In this document: piece after piece, positions 32,270 to 38,893 of the stretch | Layout of the letters: each line of letters starts with the position of its first letter | How positions within the stretch are numbered: position 1 is the first letter of the stretch | Source of the DNA: Pseudophaeobacter flagellatus | Lineage (GTDB): Bacteria; Pseudomonadota; Alphaproteobacteria; Rhodobacterales; Rhodobacteraceae | Length of the DNA stretch: 64,000 bases | Assembly (NCBI RefSeq): GCF_021228235.1 | Contig: NZ_JAJQRG010000008.1 | Location: 1 to 64,000 of the forward strand | Direction: 5' to 3' | Made by a program: the position numbers and the translations under genes | Notes under the pieces: model-generated | The model's database searches: none | The model's input: the letters and a program-made list of their open reading frames with translations, nothing else | Told to the model about the DNA's origin: nothing

Positions 32270-32899
32270 TCAGGTGCGCCTACAGGCGTTTTCCGTCTCG
32301 AAGCCATGCGCGATGGTCCGCGCGGTTGTGAGCCATTCATCTGTCGGCAGGGCGCGCGGTCTGGTGCAGATGCAAAGTGACCCGCCAAACGCGAAGTCAG
32401 ATCGTCGGCACAGCAATGCCTCGTTCTGGCAAATCCTATCCTGGATGAACCACCCGTCAGGCAGCCCGTCCGTGATGATCCTGTCATTGAAGCGCGGCGC
32501 GGGCATGGAGCCTTCTGTTGTCTTGATGGGGCGAAGCAGTTCCCGTGAGTGATTTCTTTCTGTGCTGCGCCAAGCTGCGGGTGTGTCGGGAGTGCTGGAT
32601 GCCGGTCTCTGGCCGTTGTAGGGGCAGTCGGGCCTGCCATCCGTGGCGCGGCGGTTGCGGGTGCCAGCCTTATGGGCAGTTGCGGTCCAGGCGGTAATGG
32701 CGTCAAAGAAAGTGCCGGCGCTTGCCTTGATGCCGTGCAATTCGGCGCGGTGGGTCAGGTTTTCGGGTTCCCACCAGTCCAGTGGATCACCGCTGGGCGG
32801 GGTCAGGCTGCCGCCGAGATCCTGAAACCGCAGAATTTTGCAACGGCCCTGTTTAGCGGTGATTTCCGCCGCGACTGCGGCCAGACTGTTTGGGGGCAT
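32270..32899 (-). CDS. phage-cassette protein of unknown function
   Basis: A 209-residue protein, last gene of the cassette, with a strong GGGAGGG ribosome site before the ATG. Visible features are PLDWWEPENLTHRAELHGIK, several tryptophans and cysteines (CRRSDFAFGGSLCICTRP), and a Ser/Thr/Pro-rich middle. No signal peptide or membrane segment. I recognise no family. It sits 82 bases after the formyltransferase and is followed by the terminator, so it is probably co-expressed with the presumed modification genes. Confidence 0.6.
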   Translation of the reverse strand: MPPNSLAAVAAEITAKQGRCKILRFQDLGGSLTPPSGDPLDWWEPENLTHRAELHGIKASAGTFFDAITAWTATAHKAGTRNRRATDGRPDCPYNGQRPASSTPDTPAAWRSTERNHSRELLRPIKTTEGSMPAPRFNDRIITDGLPDGWFIQDRICQNEALLCRRSDFAFGGSLCICTRPRALPTDEWLTTARTIAHGFETENACRRT

Positions 32900-32954
32900 G
32901 GCGCGCCCTCCCTTTTTAGGATTCTGTAAGCCCAGTTTAAAAACCGGGATTTCT

Positions 32955-32980
32955 AGAAAAACCCGCAAGTCGTTTTGCGC
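32955..32980 (-). repeat. 26-base phage element, copy A
   Basis: Reads on the minus strand GCGCAAAACGACTTGCGGGT followed by TTTTCT and begins directly after the formyltransferase stop codon. It matches copy B (35145-35170) at 23 of 26 bases in the same orientation and the same place relative to a stop codon. It may be a small terminator-like hairpin or a phage promoter element. Confidence 0.6.
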
Positions 32981-33544
32981 CTATGGGGGATGGGTAACCG
33001 CCCCCGCCCCTTGGACCAGCAGATCCGCCCCCAGCGGTGCCAAGGCCCGTTTCCAAAGCTGCAGGGCCGTTTCCCCCGGCAAGATCTGGATGCGCCCTTG
33101 GAGCCTCTGCCCGCCCGCGATAACCACCGGCCCACCGTCGACCTGATCGGTGAGCCAGTAGACCGTGCCCCCGGTCATGCGCTGGCCATCGGCCAGGCAA
33201 TCGCGGATCGCGTGGCGGCCTGGGTAGTCGGGCAGCAGCGAGGGGTGATAGCCGATGGCCCCCAACCGGGCCAGGCGGATGAACCAGCTGGGCAGGATGC
33301 GGAAGGAATGGGCGGAGAGGATCAGATCGGGGCTCCAGGGCAGATCCGCACCGATAAGGGGCACGCGGCGGTCCTTGACTGTGTAGCGCAGGCCAAGGCA
33401 GTCAGCGGCGGCGATGGCTGTGCGTTCCCCCGGTTCGGTAATCAGGCAGGCCTCAAAGCCCGCTTCGGTGAGGCGCACCAACATCTCGGCGGCGAGCCAG
33501 GAACAGCCGATCACGGCAATGCGGCGGGGGCTATTCTTCGACAT
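32981..33544 (-). CDS. phage formyltransferase-fold protein
   Basis: A 187-residue protein with the formyl-THF transferase core: IAVIGCSWLAAEMLVRL, then GAIGYHPSLLPDYPGRHAIR and VTGGTVYW-like TGGTVYWLTDQVDGGPV. The catalytic His (H100) and Asp (D136) of the PurN/Fmt family are present, but the Asn normally two residues before the His is Gly (IGYH instead of INIH), as I recall for several phage relatives. The start overlaps the end of the ABC-GNAT gene. The acceptor is unknown; a nucleobase or base adduct is an inference from the cassette. Confidence 0.82.
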   Translation of the reverse strand: MSKNSPRRIAVIGCSWLAAEMLVRLTEAGFEACLITEPGERTAIAAADCLGLRYTVKDRRVPLIGADLPWSPDLILSAHSFRILPSWFIRLARLGAIGYHPSLLPDYPGRHAIRDCLADGQRMTGGTVYWLTDQVDGGPVVIAGGQRLQGRIQILPGETALQLWKRALAPLGADLLVQGAGAVTHPP

Positions 33545-34607
33545 ACCGAAACCCCTGCACAGCCCGGAAATGTCCCCCGAGTTTGCCGACTATTCCTTTC
33601 TTGCGTGTCGCCTTACACCACAGCACCGCCGAGGTTTGGTGCCACTGGGGCTGGTTGCGTAGCGCAGCAGCCAGTCCGGGGTGGGAGGTATGGAACAGCG
33701 TCGGCAGGGGCTTGTCGTAGCGGTTTACCCCACGCCGCCACAGCGCCGCCAGCTCATTGAGAAAGCGCAAGCCGAGACCCGCCCCTTGCCATTCCGGCAT
33801 GATCACCAGGCGGCAGGCCCGCGCCTCGGTCAGACCGGGGCGCGGGCTGAAGGCGATATGCGCTACGGGCTGGCCATCGACAAAGCCGACATAGTAGTCG
33901 GCCGCCACCATGCGCGGCAGCTTCAGGTAGTGATGCGGCTCAAACAGGGGCCAGTAGGAACCATCGGTCTTGTGAATGTCCATTGTGAGGCTGGGGGCAC
34001 GTCGAAGACGCCTCCATTTAAACTCGGCCGAGCGGGTGTCGATGACCCAATCCGGCTGCAACCAGGGCACCACATCTTCGTGGCAGGTGACCCCGACAAA
34101 CTGGCCCGCCCCCCGGCGCCATCCCTTGGCAAAGGCGGCGGCCCCGATCTGGGCCACCCGTCGGTCGATGGTCGAAGTGAACTCATCCAGGACAGCCAAT
34201 TTAGGGCGCTCGCACAGAAGCCGTGCCAGCCCGGCACGGAACTGTTCGCCATTGGACAGGCAATGGAAGGGGCGCAGCCAGCTTGGCACGGTGCCCAGCC
34301 CCACAGCGGCCAGGGTGGCGGTGACCTGATCCATCTCCGCCTCGGGCGCGATGGCGTCGATCAGGGCCGCGTCCTTGGGCCAGCGCGGGGCGCGGTCAAA
34401 GCGTTTGCCGAACAGGGCACGGGCGAGAGAGGTCTTGCCGGTGCCGGATGGGCCGACGATCAGCCCGACCTGCCAGGGCTGCGCGGCAAGATCCGCGTCA
34501 ATGCTCAGGCGAAAGTCCGCGTCGCCTTCCACATTGAACATGCTGGACACGCGGGCGGCACGGTAGGTTGCAGGGATGGGGGCGGGGTGGTGGATTTCAA
34601 CCTTCAT
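33531..34607 (-). CDS. ABC ATPase fused to a GNAT domain, Mom-like context
   Basis: A 358-residue fusion. Residues 40-190 are an ABC-type ATPase: GPSGTGKTS (52-60), signature LSNGEQFRAGLARLL (117-131), Walker B LAVLDEFTSTID and an H-loop in VTCHEDVV. Residues 230-340 form a GNAT fold: YVGFVDGQPVAHIAF, then the acyl-CoA loop RLVIMPEWQGAGLGLRF (266-282). There are no membrane segments, so this is not a transporter. Mu Mom, also GNAT-fold, modifies adenine in DNA and is controlled by Com; a Com-like gene lies just upstream. A DNA-modifying role is therefore plausible but unproven. Confidence 0.8.
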   Translation of the reverse strand: MKVEIHHPAPIPATYRAARVSSMFNVEGDADFRLSIDADLAAQPWQVGLIVGPSGTGKTSLARALFGKRFDRAPRWPKDAALIDAIAPEAEMDQVTATLAAVGLGTVPSWLRPFHCLSNGEQFRAGLARLLCERPKLAVLDEFTSTIDRRVAQIGAAAFAKGWRRGAGQFVGVTCHEDVVPWLQPDWVIDTRSAEFKWRRLRRAPSLTMDIHKTDGSYWPLFEPHHYLKLPRMVAADYYVGFVDGQPVAHIAFSPRPGLTEARACRLVIMPEWQGAGLGLRFLNELAALWRRGVNRYDKPLPTLFHTSHPGLAAALRNQPQWHQTSAVLWCKATRKKGIVGKLGGHFRAVQGFRYVEE

Positions 34608-34786
34608 GTGTTCACCACCTTGCAGCGGTGCCCCTGTGCCTTCAGCGCCTCAAAGAGCACGGCCTGGGCGGGTTCGTCCTCGGCCAAGACAATGATGCCG
34701 AACTGCGGTTTATAGCGGTTCCCCTTGGGTTTTCCGGGGGCGCCCTGGGGCAACGGCGGGAGATCGATTTGTTGGGATTTGGGCAT
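34604..34786 (-). CDS. small basic phage protein
   Basis: A 60-residue protein, MPKSQQIDLPPLPQGAPGKP at the start and LAEDEPAQAVLFEALKAQGH near the end, with no known family. It overlaps the Com-like gene at its beginning and the ABC-GNAT gene at its end (ATGA), so translation of all three is coupled. An ATG at 34813 would add nine residues. Confidence 0.65.
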   Translation of the reverse strand: MPKSQQIDLPPLPQGAPGKPKGNRYKPQFGIIVLAEDEPAQAVLFEALKAQGHRCKVVNT

Positions 34787-34967
34787 TTTGGCCCTCCTGT
34801 CCTTTGCGCTCATCAGGCGGGCGCTTGGGGGAAGGGCTCGGGGGCCTCAAAACATTATGTGCCTTGCATCTTGGGCACTTGATTGCCAGCAGCCCGGAAA
34901 GGGCTTGAGGCTCGAATTTAAATAACAATTTGCGGCACTCGCCGCAACGCTGCTCTTGCAGGAACAA
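34710..34967 (-). CDS. com: Com-like zinc finger regulator
   Basis: An 85-residue protein with a four-cysteine zinc ribbon in its first half: RCGECRKLLFK (Cys 8 and 11) and LAIKCPRCKAHNVLRP (Cys 31 and 34). The spacing and sequence match Mu Com, which opens the mom mRNA for translation. The second half is Pro/Arg/Lys-rich and overlaps the next gene. It starts with TTG behind a GGAG site; there is no in-frame ATG. It is the first gene of the cassette. Confidence 0.78.
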   Translation of the reverse strand: MFLQEQRCGECRKLLFKFEPQALSGLLAIKCPRCKAHNVLRPPSPSPKRPPDERKGQEGQNAQIPTNRSPAVAPGRPRKTQGEPL

Positions 34968-35144
34968 GGGGAATCACTCCATTGAGACCGCACCCTCGCG
35001 AGGGGTGGGGCGGCCATGAAGCTTATGCTGGTCGGCGGGGTCAGCGTTTTAATTATGGCCCCGTGTCGGGGGGCGTTGGCGCGCCCCTCGGCCCCCAATC
35101 ACGGCGACCGGGTGCATCCCCTGATTAGCAATGGCCAAGGGGCC

Positions 35145-35170
35145 GGAAAAACCCGCAAGTTGTTTTGTGC
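35145..35170 (-). repeat. 26-base phage element, copy B
   Basis: Minus strand GCACAAAACAACTTGCGGGT followed by TTTTCC, beginning one base after the stop of the GNAT-like gene. See copy A at 32955-32980. The stretch between this element and com (34968-35144) has no gene and probably holds the com promoter. Confidence 0.6.
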
Positions 35171-35171
35171 T

Positions 35172-35672
35172 TCAGGCAGGCCCGACAGGTGAATAGCGCA
35201 CCGGCAGGCCATTATAGACCAAGCCTTTGATCACTTTCGGCTTGTCGCTCATGCGTCCGGTGAAGTCCCAAATGGCATCTGTTGCCTGGCCATAAACCAG
35301 CAGGATATTTAGGCCGGATGCCCCGGCCAGCTCCTGCGCTTCGCGGGACAATGTGGCACCGATGCCCTCACCACGGCGGCTTTTGTGGACCCAGACCATG
35401 ATAGGCGTGAAGGCCTTGGCGGCATCAAACGGGAGGTTTCCCGCTTCGGCCTGCTCTTTCACCCAGGGGTCATTGAGGGACGGAAAGACCATATAGCTGC
35501 CGATCAGACAGTTGCGCTCGTCCACCGCCAAAACCATCTGCGTGTCCAGATCGACCAGGCCGGGGTAGCGCGCAGCGCGCCCCAGTCCTTCTGCCATCCA
35601 ATCCTGCATATTCAGAGCTGCAATGGCTTTTTGGCGCATCGCGGCGACGTGCCCCTTGATAAAGGTGGTCAT
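35172..35672 (-). CDS. GNAT-like phage protein
   Basis: A 166-residue protein (MTTFIKGHVAAMRQKAIAAL). The acetyl-CoA loop is visible in VWVHKSRRGEGIGATLSREA, and the end (LLVYGQATDAIWDFTGRM) fits a small N-acetyltransferase fold. It is distinct from the GNAT domain of the ABC fusion. The first 50 codons are duplicated at 36149-36298. It lies after a tail-protein remnant on the same strand, where tail-assembly or moron genes are expected. Substrate unknown. Confidence 0.68.
   Translation of the reverse strand: MTTFIKGHVAAMRQKAIAALNMQDWMAEGLGRAARYPGLVDLDTQMVLAVDERNCLIGSYMVFPSLNDPWVKEQAEAGNLPFDAAKAFTPIMVWVHKSRRGEGIGATLSREAQELAGASGLNILLVYGQATDAIWDFTGRMSDKPKVIKGLVYNGLPVRYSPVGPA
35521..35672. repeat. 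direct repeat copy 1 (152 bp)
   Basis: Covers the start of the GNAT-like gene. Identical to 36149-36298 as far as I can read, except for two C residues (AATCCTGCAT against AATTGCAT). The two copies flank the portal fragment. Confidence 0.9.
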
Positions 35673-36148: not shown

Positions 36149-36298
36149 TCCACCGCCAAAACCATCTGCGTGTCCAGATCGACCAGGCCGGGGTAGCGCG
36201 CAGCGCGCCCCAGTCCTTCTGCCATCCAATTGCATATTCAGAGCTGCAATGGCTTTTTGGCGCATCGCGGCGACGTGCCCCTTGATAAAGGTGGTCAT
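36149..36298. repeat. direct repeat copy 2 (150 bp)
   Basis: Second copy of 35521-35672 with a 2-base deletion. It carries a second ATG start of the GNAT-like gene; the deletion shifts the frame, which then enters portal sequence. This start codon overlaps the stop of the small upstream frame. Confidence 0.9.
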
Positions 36299-37064: not shown

Positions 37065-38303
37065 TTACCTCAAAGCAACTGAATTGACTTGTGAGAGCAG
37101 CCTATATTCGTCTGAGGTGAGGTTTTCTTCCGCTCGTGACATTGCTTCTGCCACCATGGCACTTGTTGGAGTGCCGAATACTTTCGGAGAGATCACAGCT
37201 AAGGCGCGTAGCGCTTTCTGGATCCGGACATGAACTTCATAAATCTCGGCGCTGTCGCGAACGATTGGTCGAAACGCATCATCGATGAGGTCCGCAGGCT
37301 GAAGCGGTGGTACAAAGACCGACTCGTGTTCGATATCCGCCACCGGGTTGTCTTTCCATTGCGCAAGAATGCGGACCAGACGTCCGACAACACTGATGGC
37401 AGTGCCGGGATCATTGATCGCTGGCGAAAGAGCGCGCGAAGCGATCTCGGCCATGACGATCAGTCCGAAACGGGGATCTTGATCAAAATTGCGTTCGGCT
37501 CCGTCCGTAAAGGCTGACCGAAGTTGCTGCAAAGCATCAGCATCTACTTGTCGTGTGACATGGCAGAGTACACTTGCCTCGTGCACGAACGCACCCGGTA
37601 AAACCGACAGCCAGACTTCGATTTTCAGATCGTCAGCACATGCCTGGAGTTGACCAAGGTCAACATGCTGTATGTAACCGGTCCGATCCGAAAAAACAGG
37701 CAAGCTATCGCTAGGAATTGAGCCTTCGATTGGCCGACCGCCAAGAAACGGAGTCTTGAGTCTGCGCTCAAGCGATGTAACGGCGGCGGCTTCCACCCGG
37801 TCTAGTGTGTCGCCCATGCGGCCGAACGTCATTAGATGACTTATCCACCGCAACAGTGCCACGACGACCGCCGCGATGACAAACGCTGTCGTCACGAACA
37901 GAACAAGCCTACCTTTGTCTGTGTAATAGCCAGCTTGAAGAGCTATGATCCCAACAAGGCCAAAAAGGAACGCGCCAAGGAATGTCGCAAGGACATTTTG
38001 TGCGGTCGGATCTTCTTGAAGAAGCGCTGTAGCGCGTGGCGTTGCCGTACTTGCTGCTGCAGCGAACGCGGATGTCGCGATTGATAAGGAGAAGGTCGTC
38101 ACCGCCAGCATCGTCGTCGCAAGGATATTTAACACCAGATCAACCGAGTCAGTGCCTATCTTTACCGCCCAAGCGGATGGGATCAGCGGCGCTATCGCTT
38201 GTGCGATGATCGCCGAGACCACGGCAAGTAGCGCGAACGACACAACGCGAACCCATACCTTGCGAAGATGCCGAAGAAAGTGCCAACCAATTTTAGACGT
38301 CAT
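37065..38303 (-). CDS. DUF2254 membrane protein
   Basis: A 412-residue protein with four membrane helices in the first 170 residues (including LILNILATTMLAVTTFSLSI-like and FLGAFLFGLVGIIAL) and a soluble C-terminal half with SPAINDPGTAISVVGRLVRIL, the DUF2254 signature. Function unknown. It is monocistronic, reading toward the prophage. Stretch 38304-38558 upstream holds no gene. Confidence 0.85.
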   Translation of the reverse strand: MTSKIGWHFLRHLRKVWVRVVSFALLAVVSAIIAQAIAPLIPSAWAVKIGTDSVDLVLNILATTMLAVTTFSLSIATSAFAAAASTATPRATALLQEDPTAQNVLATFLGAFLFGLVGIIALQAGYYTDKGRLVLFVTTAFVIAAVVVALLRWISHLMTFGRMGDTLDRVEAAAVTSLERRLKTPFLGGRPIEGSIPSDSLPVFSDRTGYIQHVDLGQLQACADDLKIEVWLSVLPGAFVHEASVLCHVTRQVDADALQQLRSAFTDGAERNFDQDPRFGLIVMAEIASRALSPAINDPGTAISVVGRLVRILAQWKDNPVADIEHESVFVPPLQPADLIDDAFRPIVRDSAEIYEVHVRIQKALRALAVISPKVFGTPTSAMVAEAMSRAEENLTSDEYRLLSQVNSVALR

Positions 38304-38558: not shown

Positions 38559-38893
38559 TGAGGTGCCCCTAGATTTGTAGACGCTTTGCTTGGTAATTTT
38601 GGAAGCAAAGGACGATGCACATGTCAGGGCAAATTCGCTATTCAGATGAGTTCAAGATCGACGCGGTAGCTCAGGTCACGGAGCGTGGTTATTCGGTCAA
38701 GGAAGTGGCTGAGCGGCTCGGGATCAGCACCAAATCTCTGTACACTTGGATGGCACAATTCTCGAAGCCACAGAGGCAGACAGATCAAGAAGCTGAGGTC
38801 AGGCGTCTTAAGAAAGAACTGGCCCGCGTGACCGAGGAGCGTGACATCTTATAAAAGGCCACCGCGTACTTCGCCAGGGATGCAAAGTGAGGT
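38559..38893 (+). mobile_element. IS3-family remnant (left end and orfA)
   Basis: The left end begins TGAGGTGCCCCTAGATTTG, of IS3-type form. The orfA frame (38621-38854) carries the helix-turn-helix YSVKEVAERLGISTKSLYTW and leucine-zipper EAEVRRLKKELARVTEERDI. A TAA replaces the lysine codon after DIL; past it the normal orfA end KATAYFARDAK is readable to position 38888. The orfB transposase, with the DDE residues, is absent and foreign sequence follows directly, so the element is dead. Confidence 0.82.

Follow-up and report, generated by a model that had tools for sequence, protein, structure and literature searches.

In phage Mu, com overlaps mom by 80 nt, and the product of the Mom enzyme is an N6-carbamoylmethyl-type adenine in DNA. 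A further base-modification system, combining an ABC ATPase with a GNAT domain, was predicted by Iyer and colleagues, as stated in passages of PMC7824862, with the ABC-GNAT protein expected to acylate a DNA base. Formyl transfer to a thiol is described for 10-formyl-tetrahydrofolate (10-formyl-THF) dehydrogenase (FDH; ALDH1L1), for which passages of PMC8748788 and PMC6802093 name a pantetheine thiol as acceptor; for the N-terminal domain of HypX, transfer to CoA is proposed in a passage of PMC6802093, its authors admitting no direct proof. Combining family searches, structural models and comparisons across phage and bacterial genomes, the present analysis concerns a locus that brings these elements together. 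Its four genes constitute a widespread phage module. The reading we favour, at a probability of roughly 0.45, is that they form a DNA-modification module able to stand in for mom, in which a formyltransferase-fold protein (FT) would furnish formyl-CoA to the GNAT half of an ABC-GNAT protein.

The locus lies in a window of 64,000 nt from Pseudophaeobacter flagellatus (contig NZ_JAJQRG010000008.1, positions 1 to 64,000). On the minus strand, and in this order, are com (34710..34967), a gene for a 60-residue protein (34604..34786), ABC-GNAT (33531..34607) and FT (32981..33544), successive genes overlapping by 77, 4 and 14 nt. The initial annotation had described a five-gene, same-strand cassette; these four genes, all on one strand and overlapping, bear that description out, and the fifth open reading frame (ORF; 32968-32270) does not belong. 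The latter has no Pfam, PHROG or NCBIfam match up to E 1 and nothing better than E 0.9 among phages, and it is matched in this genome and one other among 198 genomes of the family. Two separate parts of it match sites approximately 1.3 kb apart in this genome (69-79% in the main matches), and DNA similarity to three FT-holding relatives stops at 33017-33030, within FT. On these grounds it was rejected as a module member; to judge by these matches, it resembles a chimeric remnant of a prophage. The matching region also holds integrase-like and repressor-like ORFs, named by eye. As had been noted earlier, the neighbouring phage genes are wrecked: a portal fragment is present, and a block of some 150 nt is repeated. 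Upstream of com, a conserved region on the same strand (34968..35077) is a candidate promoter or leader, the DNA similarity reaching 35077-35096 in four of the five relatives compared and stopping at 34958 in the fifth. Directly after FT is a terminator-like hairpin with a T run (32956..32980, minus strand), which is one copy of the direct repeat D3; across the region such terminator-like patterns show no excess (8, against 7.2 in shuffles). The other copy of D3 (35146..35170, minus strand), 92% identical and directly after the preceding ORF, is absent from the terminator-like sites found.

The resemblance to Mu begins with com, whose product was correctly identified from the outset as a Com-like, four-cysteine zinc ribbon of a translational regulator family (Pfam Zn_ribbon_Com, PF10122, E 2.9e-9, 36.7 bits against a cut-off of 22.9; phrog_6417, E 4.5e-13). 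The gene starts with TTG, preceded by GGAG, and its 77 nt overlap with the next gene, close to that of com and mom in Mu, recurs in 77 of 83 other loci when the start is picked by Shine-Dalgarno score. A GNAT-type enzyme is encoded in both systems. The gene overlapping com is, however, that of the small subunit here and that of the enzyme in Mu; the ABC half and FT are extra, the GNAT half is not detectably Mom, and Com was not found in many module loci. A Mom-type hairpin hiding the start was not seen: mean pairing was 0.557 against 0.611 in control stretches, and 27 of 74 lay above control, in a weak test that gave no signal for Mu itself. Nor did the evidence support Com control across the module: a Com relative turned up in just 88 of 183 loci, and no four-cysteine pattern emerged when four Porphyromonas cassette regions were searched. 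Com accompanied the ParB-like form of the small domain, described below, in none of 39 cases.

The 60-residue basic protein was confirmed at 34786-34604, being counted from an ATG behind AGGAGG and matching phrog_28816 (E 2e-11, with a query that began nine codons ahead of that ATG). It appears to be a conserved small subunit, with a relative preceding ABC-GNAT in 167 of 183 loci. By sequence comparison, it is a free-standing version of the domain that ends longer, often ParB-like, phage proteins; the ParB-like part is missing from the protein in this locus. According to a motif and length rule, a ParB-like protein terminates in the small domain in 39 loci. When 10 of the 36 ParB-like proteins in the reduced set were sampled, Pfam ParB_N matched five (E up to 0.01; two above the cut-off) and the remaining five were without a match.

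The fusion of an ABC ATPase to a GNAT domain is borne out by a phrog_11143 match covering residues 1-357 (E 7.4e-130) and by ABC_tran and Acetyltransf_1 matches, both above the Pfam cut-off. We take its motifs to be a P-loop (34454-34431), an ABC signature (34259-34233), a Walker B motif (34199-34173) and a CoA-binding motif (33812-33771). The AlphaFold2 model has a mean pLDDT of 90.4 and a pTM of 0.85. A fold search with it was uninformative on the GNAT half, because the 50 best of 1798 matches (E up to 10) were all, by title, ABC ATPases or their complexes. The initial annotation had proposed comparing the GNAT half with Mom, and membership of the Mom family was not supported: hhalign of 57 GNAT-half sequences against seven Mom proteins gave a non-significant E of 0.23. 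In that alignment, a His-His-Tyr stretch of the GNAT half pairs with His-Tyr-Ser of Mom. Among solved acetyltransferases, none matched the GNAT half at E below 0.1.

The last gene encodes a formyltransferase-fold protein, as first proposed (Formyl_trans_N, PF00551, E 6.4e-20), for which AlphaFold2 gave a model with a mean pLDDT of 95.4. The best PDB match of its family profile is FDH, at 3.5e-48 against 1.7e-30 for Fmt. Its GYHPS motif begins at 33253 and its Asp is Asp136. Across distinct FT sequences the catalytic His (120/120) and Asp (121/121) are invariant, and the usual Asn of N-x-H is missing from all 120 with a letter there, being replaced by G (103), I (7), A (7), V (2) or S (1); similarly, in a set of 40 sequences, H, P, S and D occur in every one and Asn in none. 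FDH carries Ile at this position in the alignment, and the ALDH1L1 hydrolase domain resembles FT in having HPS and Asp without Asn. Two other formyltransferase-family proteins of the same genome keep the Asn (N-I-H, against G-Y-H in FT), and a third gave no pattern match. As to a PurN or Fmt identity, FT lacks N-x-H and scores below the NCBIfam cut-offs. By these residues FT is of the FDH-hydrolase type, with a predicted His, Ser and Asp triad and no preceding Asn. The triad also occurs in Fmt and ArnA, according to a passage of PMC6802093, which leaves the missing Asn and the profile rank as the sole pointers to FDH. Unlike ALDH1L1 and HypX, FT is free-standing, with neither a carrier nor a dehydrogenase domain, and it could instead hydrolyse 10-formyl-THF or use another acceptor.

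Co-occurrence elsewhere, the check set beforehand, was found for the four genes. FT accompanies ABC-GNAT in 130 of 164 loci that are not cut off, and ABC-GNAT adjoins FT in 78 of the best 80 viral FT loci, the remaining two being cut off. FT is not required in every version, since 34 of the 164 loci are without it; such versions include a divergent group whose 13 members within the reduced set all lack FT. The claim that the cassette occupies the position of mom gained direct support from Porphyromonas phages, 10 records of which have their last two tail genes in common. Five of these carry ABC-GNAT, four a Mom homologue and one (010a) neither, and the nine phage regions read resemble one another in their tail genes and in their last 70 nt. 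With ABC-GNAT or mom at one site, the module is able to take mom's place. In Pseudomonas, a further candidate swap was discarded: the Komp_PAO1_1 stretch matched only itself and 174 bases in another phage, and Komp_PAO1_1 is therefore not close to the mom phage JD024.

That the module modifies DNA is, given this swap and the domains present, probable, and this role, already put forward in the initial annotation, agrees with the ABC-GNAT prediction as stated in PMC7824862. By analogy with Mu, Com, where present, would work at the transcript to permit translation of the overlapping small gene, with that of ABC-GNAT and FT following through the overlaps. Recruitment of ABC-GNAT to DNA may fall to the small subunit, or to the longer ParB-like protein containing it, with ATP binding by the ABC half coupled to DNA engagement. 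FT is proposed to move a formyl group from 10-formyl-THF to the CoA thiol, and the GNAT half, in which a CoA-binding motif is present, to hand it on from formyl-CoA to a base amino group; the mark would shield phage DNA from restriction. That the added group is a formyl delivered by formyl-CoA is a tentative proposal, drawn from residue patterns and profile rank, and the full chain, in which phages N-formylate their own DNA by means of a folate-fed enzyme, formyl-CoA and an ATP-gated GNAT, is more doubtful still. Formylated bases made by oxidation, such as 5-formylcytosine, are known; to our knowledge, and within a limited literature search, no base formylated by an acyl-CoA is.

The steps might also run in the other order: the GNAT half would first attach an acyl group, taken from acetyl-CoA or from an aminoacyl donor, and FT would formylate an amine on that group. 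The FT-less versions, in which GNAT probably has another donor, favour this order, but the Asn that this genome's PurN- and Fmt-type proteins retain is missing from FT, and its nearest match is FDH, the acceptor of which is a thiol; we regard this order as unlikely. Less likely again is a target other than DNA, namely host RNA, tRNA or protein modified for cell takeover. Proteins and tRNA are frequent GNAT substrates, and a phage GNAT with RNA polymerase as its acetylation target is named in a passage of PMC7824862; against this stand the swap with mom at one site, the ParB-like fusion partner in some loci and, in several other phages, the placing of module genes close to terminase. There is only a slight chance that FT is a PurN-like purine or folate helper and that ABC-GNAT works without it. 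Phage annotations do call FT a phosphoribosylglycinamide formyltransferase, FT is missing in some loci, and, of the 44 phage records that match FT, 33 hold weaker relatives, labelled in some cases as cyanophage PurN, but the best viral relatives adjoin ABC-GNAT wherever the locus is not cut off, and the nearest solved relative is FDH, not PurN. The earlier suggestion of a host-retained defence or self-marking system is very improbable: an intact module next to broken phage genes and a low dN/dS against relatives (0.13-0.17 for ABC-GNAT, 0.19-0.29 for FT) speak for it, but dN/dS also reflects selection on phage copies, ABC-GNAT is rare (3/295 same-family genomes, counting this one, at E up to 1e-40, and 2/299 same-phylum genomes), and PADLOC, with no matches for three of the proteins and none along the length of ABC-GNAT, met only short ATPase stretches in the ABC half (mad3, 9.6e-11, residues 112-180; mad8, 2.3e-4, and TRIP13, 0.0047, at the P-loop).

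The favoured reading, a DNA-modification module able to stand in for mom, shares its domain pair with the system predicted by Iyer and colleagues, and phage pT24, named in PMC7824862, is also among the ABC-GNAT matches here. Relative to the passages of PMC7824862 that recount the prediction, what is new is the module, the mom swap and an FT whose nearest solved relative is the FDH hydrolase domain. A literature search, mostly of titles and passages, brought to notice no paper joining ABC-GNAT with FT. Serratia phage eta was considered as a chemical lead and rejected, its DNA being without modified bases according to a passage of PMC3918226.

These findings turn the published guess that ABC-GNAT acylates DNA into a module that is defined and widespread and that comes with a natural control, in that related phages with matching tail genes and genome ends carry the module, mom or neither; mass spectrometry of phages already available could therefore test the nature of the mark. 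Should formyl-CoA prove to be the donor, a use that we have not met before within a limited literature search, folate metabolism would be linked to DNA marking.

The module consists of four minus-strand genes: com (34967-34710), the gene for a 60-residue small subunit (34786-34604), an ABC-GNAT fusion gene (34607-33531), and FT (33544-32981), which encodes a formyltransferase-fold protein. Within the fusion, a CoA-binding motif lies in the GNAT half, and the ABC half carries the P-loop, signature, Walker B and His switch motifs. In the AlphaFold2 model of the fusion (mean pLDDT 90.4, pTM 0.85), the strand order of the second half appears, by our reading, GNAT-like; FT was modelled with a mean pLDDT of 95.4 and a pTM of 0.89. 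Profile comparison of the GNAT half with Mom, the DNA-modifying enzyme of phage Mu, gave no match; nor did the GNAT half match solved acetyltransferases at E < 0.1. A fifth ORF (32270-32968), formerly counted in the cassette, is placed outside the module because its two parts match separate places of this genome (main matches at 69-79%). The matching places lie on contigs 22, 24, 26 and 1, with a single further one in a different genome, and the ORF looks like a fusion left by a deletion. A block of ~150 nt is nearly identical at 35521-35672, inside a GNAT-like ORF (35711-35172), and at 36149-36298, at a portal fragment (36225-35470), and the phage genes there have therefore been rearranged. 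The prophage remnant is adjoined by the gene for a DUF2254 membrane protein (37065-38303), which also matches phrog_27913, and an ORF at 38615-38854 resembles, as judged by eye, the start of a transposase.

Linkage of FT to ABC-GNAT was assessed in 183 loci, each with an ABC-GNAT ORF, drawn from viral contigs, genome contigs, three phage records, the window and further genomes, with duplicates included, among them the window's own locus; one viral-contig set comprised the best 80 of at least 589 matches, and the genome-contig set the best 80 of 480. By a strict rule, FT lies immediately downstream of ABC-GNAT in 79 of the 183 loci, and another 51 have an FT that the rule does not capture: in 49 the gap is negative, which we read as overlap from choosing the longest reading frame, and in two it is 260 and 333, respectively. 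FT is missing from 34 loci, and 19 further loci without it have a contig end within 400 bases; among loci not cut off, FT is thus present in 130 of 164. When sequences at least 95% alike were dropped (177 long enough, reduced to 155), 115 loci had FT, 27 had none and 13 were cut off. The main group of this reduced set includes 115 with FT, 14 without and 13 cut off, and the divergent group has FT in 0 of 13; FT is not universal among ABC-GNAT loci. For the reverse count, one FT motif detected 338 viral loci, of which the best 80 were used, some on contigs shared with the first set; ABC-GNAT stands beside FT in 78 (64 by strict distance, 14 within ~620 bases), and in the other two the contig is cut off at FT. 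For these two genes, the expected co-occurrence is thereby supported. Phage records matching FT number 44, 11 of which also match ABC-GNAT (Komp_PAO1_1 and ten Gordonia phages); the other 33 matches are weaker. FT of several Gordonia phages (phage-record matches H43, H45, H46 and H49-H51) is labelled a tRNA-methyltransferase, which the family match does not suggest. In the Gram-positive phages of loci L284, L286, L287 and L288, the annotation splits ABC-GNAT into two adjacent genes, one for each half.

A relative of the 60-residue protein occurs upstream of ABC-GNAT in 167 of the 183 loci, free-standing in 115, at the end of a longer ParB-like protein in 39 (a class set by a motif and length rule) and at that of another longer ORF in 13. 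Of ten ParB-like proteins sampled, five gave a Pfam ParB_N match, which exceeded the cut-off in two; the five without a match include that of NHagos, a protein annotated as ParB-like. Com was detected in 88 loci. In 87 of these it accompanies the free-standing small protein, and in the remaining one no small protein was detected; with the ParB-like form, Com was seen in 0 of 39. The overlap of com with the small gene is 77 nt, that of Mu com and mom is 80 nt, and a com/small overlap recurs in 77 of 83 other loci. No unusual pairing was seen at the small-gene start, a weak test of a start-masking hairpin. In three Porphyromonas phages whose feature tables were examined (L003 5876-6004, L294 4888-5016 and L295 4895-5023), the small subunit is labelled an anti-CRISPR candidate, likely a misnaming, with cluster membership established for one of the three.

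Ten Porphyromonas phage records have in common their last two tail genes (87-100% vs phage007a). ABC-GNAT is present in five of these, FT following in all four examined (009a left out); four carry a Mom homologue directly after the tail genes (33% identity to Mu Mom for the two aligned); and 010a, labelled complete, has nothing annotated there. Between 007a and 013a, DNA similarity ends right after the last tail gene. Among nine regions compared, the tail genes are 82-99.9% alike and the last 70 nt are also alike. The tail-gene tree of these regions separates mom phage 013a from the other three mom phages, which suggests at least two exchanges, although tail-gene recombination could blur this picture. 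Aeromonas phage AsFcp_4 (L194, H36) combines a Mom homologue with a distant ABC-GNAT.

In pairwise comparison with relatives, ABC-GNAT shows a dN/dS of 0.13-0.17 over five pairs. Over three pairs each, the ratio is 0.19-0.29 for FT, 0.22-0.26 for the small gene and 0.47-0.55 for com, an overlapping gene. Two of the relatives yielded identical values, and some dS values are high. These ratios show selection on the module family, not the retention by this host at which, in the initial annotation, the intact cassette hinted.

A family profile of 40 FT proteins best matches 10-formyl-THF dehydrogenase (FDH; 3.5e-48), followed, among others, by Fmt (1.7e-30), PurN (7.1e-20) and HoxX (7.3e-14). Like FDH, FT lacks the usual catalytic Asn, which is absent from all 120 distinct FT sequences that have a residue at this position; His and Asp are kept, as is Ser (40/40). 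The likeness to FDH lies in the missing Asn and the best profile match; the triad alone, as noted in a portion of PMC6802093, is also common to Fmt and ArnA. Among three other family members of this genome, two, putatively named PurN and Fmt by motif, keep the Asn, and the third gave no pattern match. FT might be a hydrolase. According to passages in PMC8748788 and PMC6802093, FDH passes the formyl group to a phosphopantetheine thiol, and the latter describes formyl transfer to CoA by HypX as proposed, without direct proof. Given these precedents and the likeness of FT to FDH, we propose that FT would make formyl-CoA, which would be the acyl donor for the GNAT half. From the position and partners of the module, we infer that its target is DNA; acylation of a DNA base by ABC-GNAT has already been predicted in print (in part of PMC7824862).
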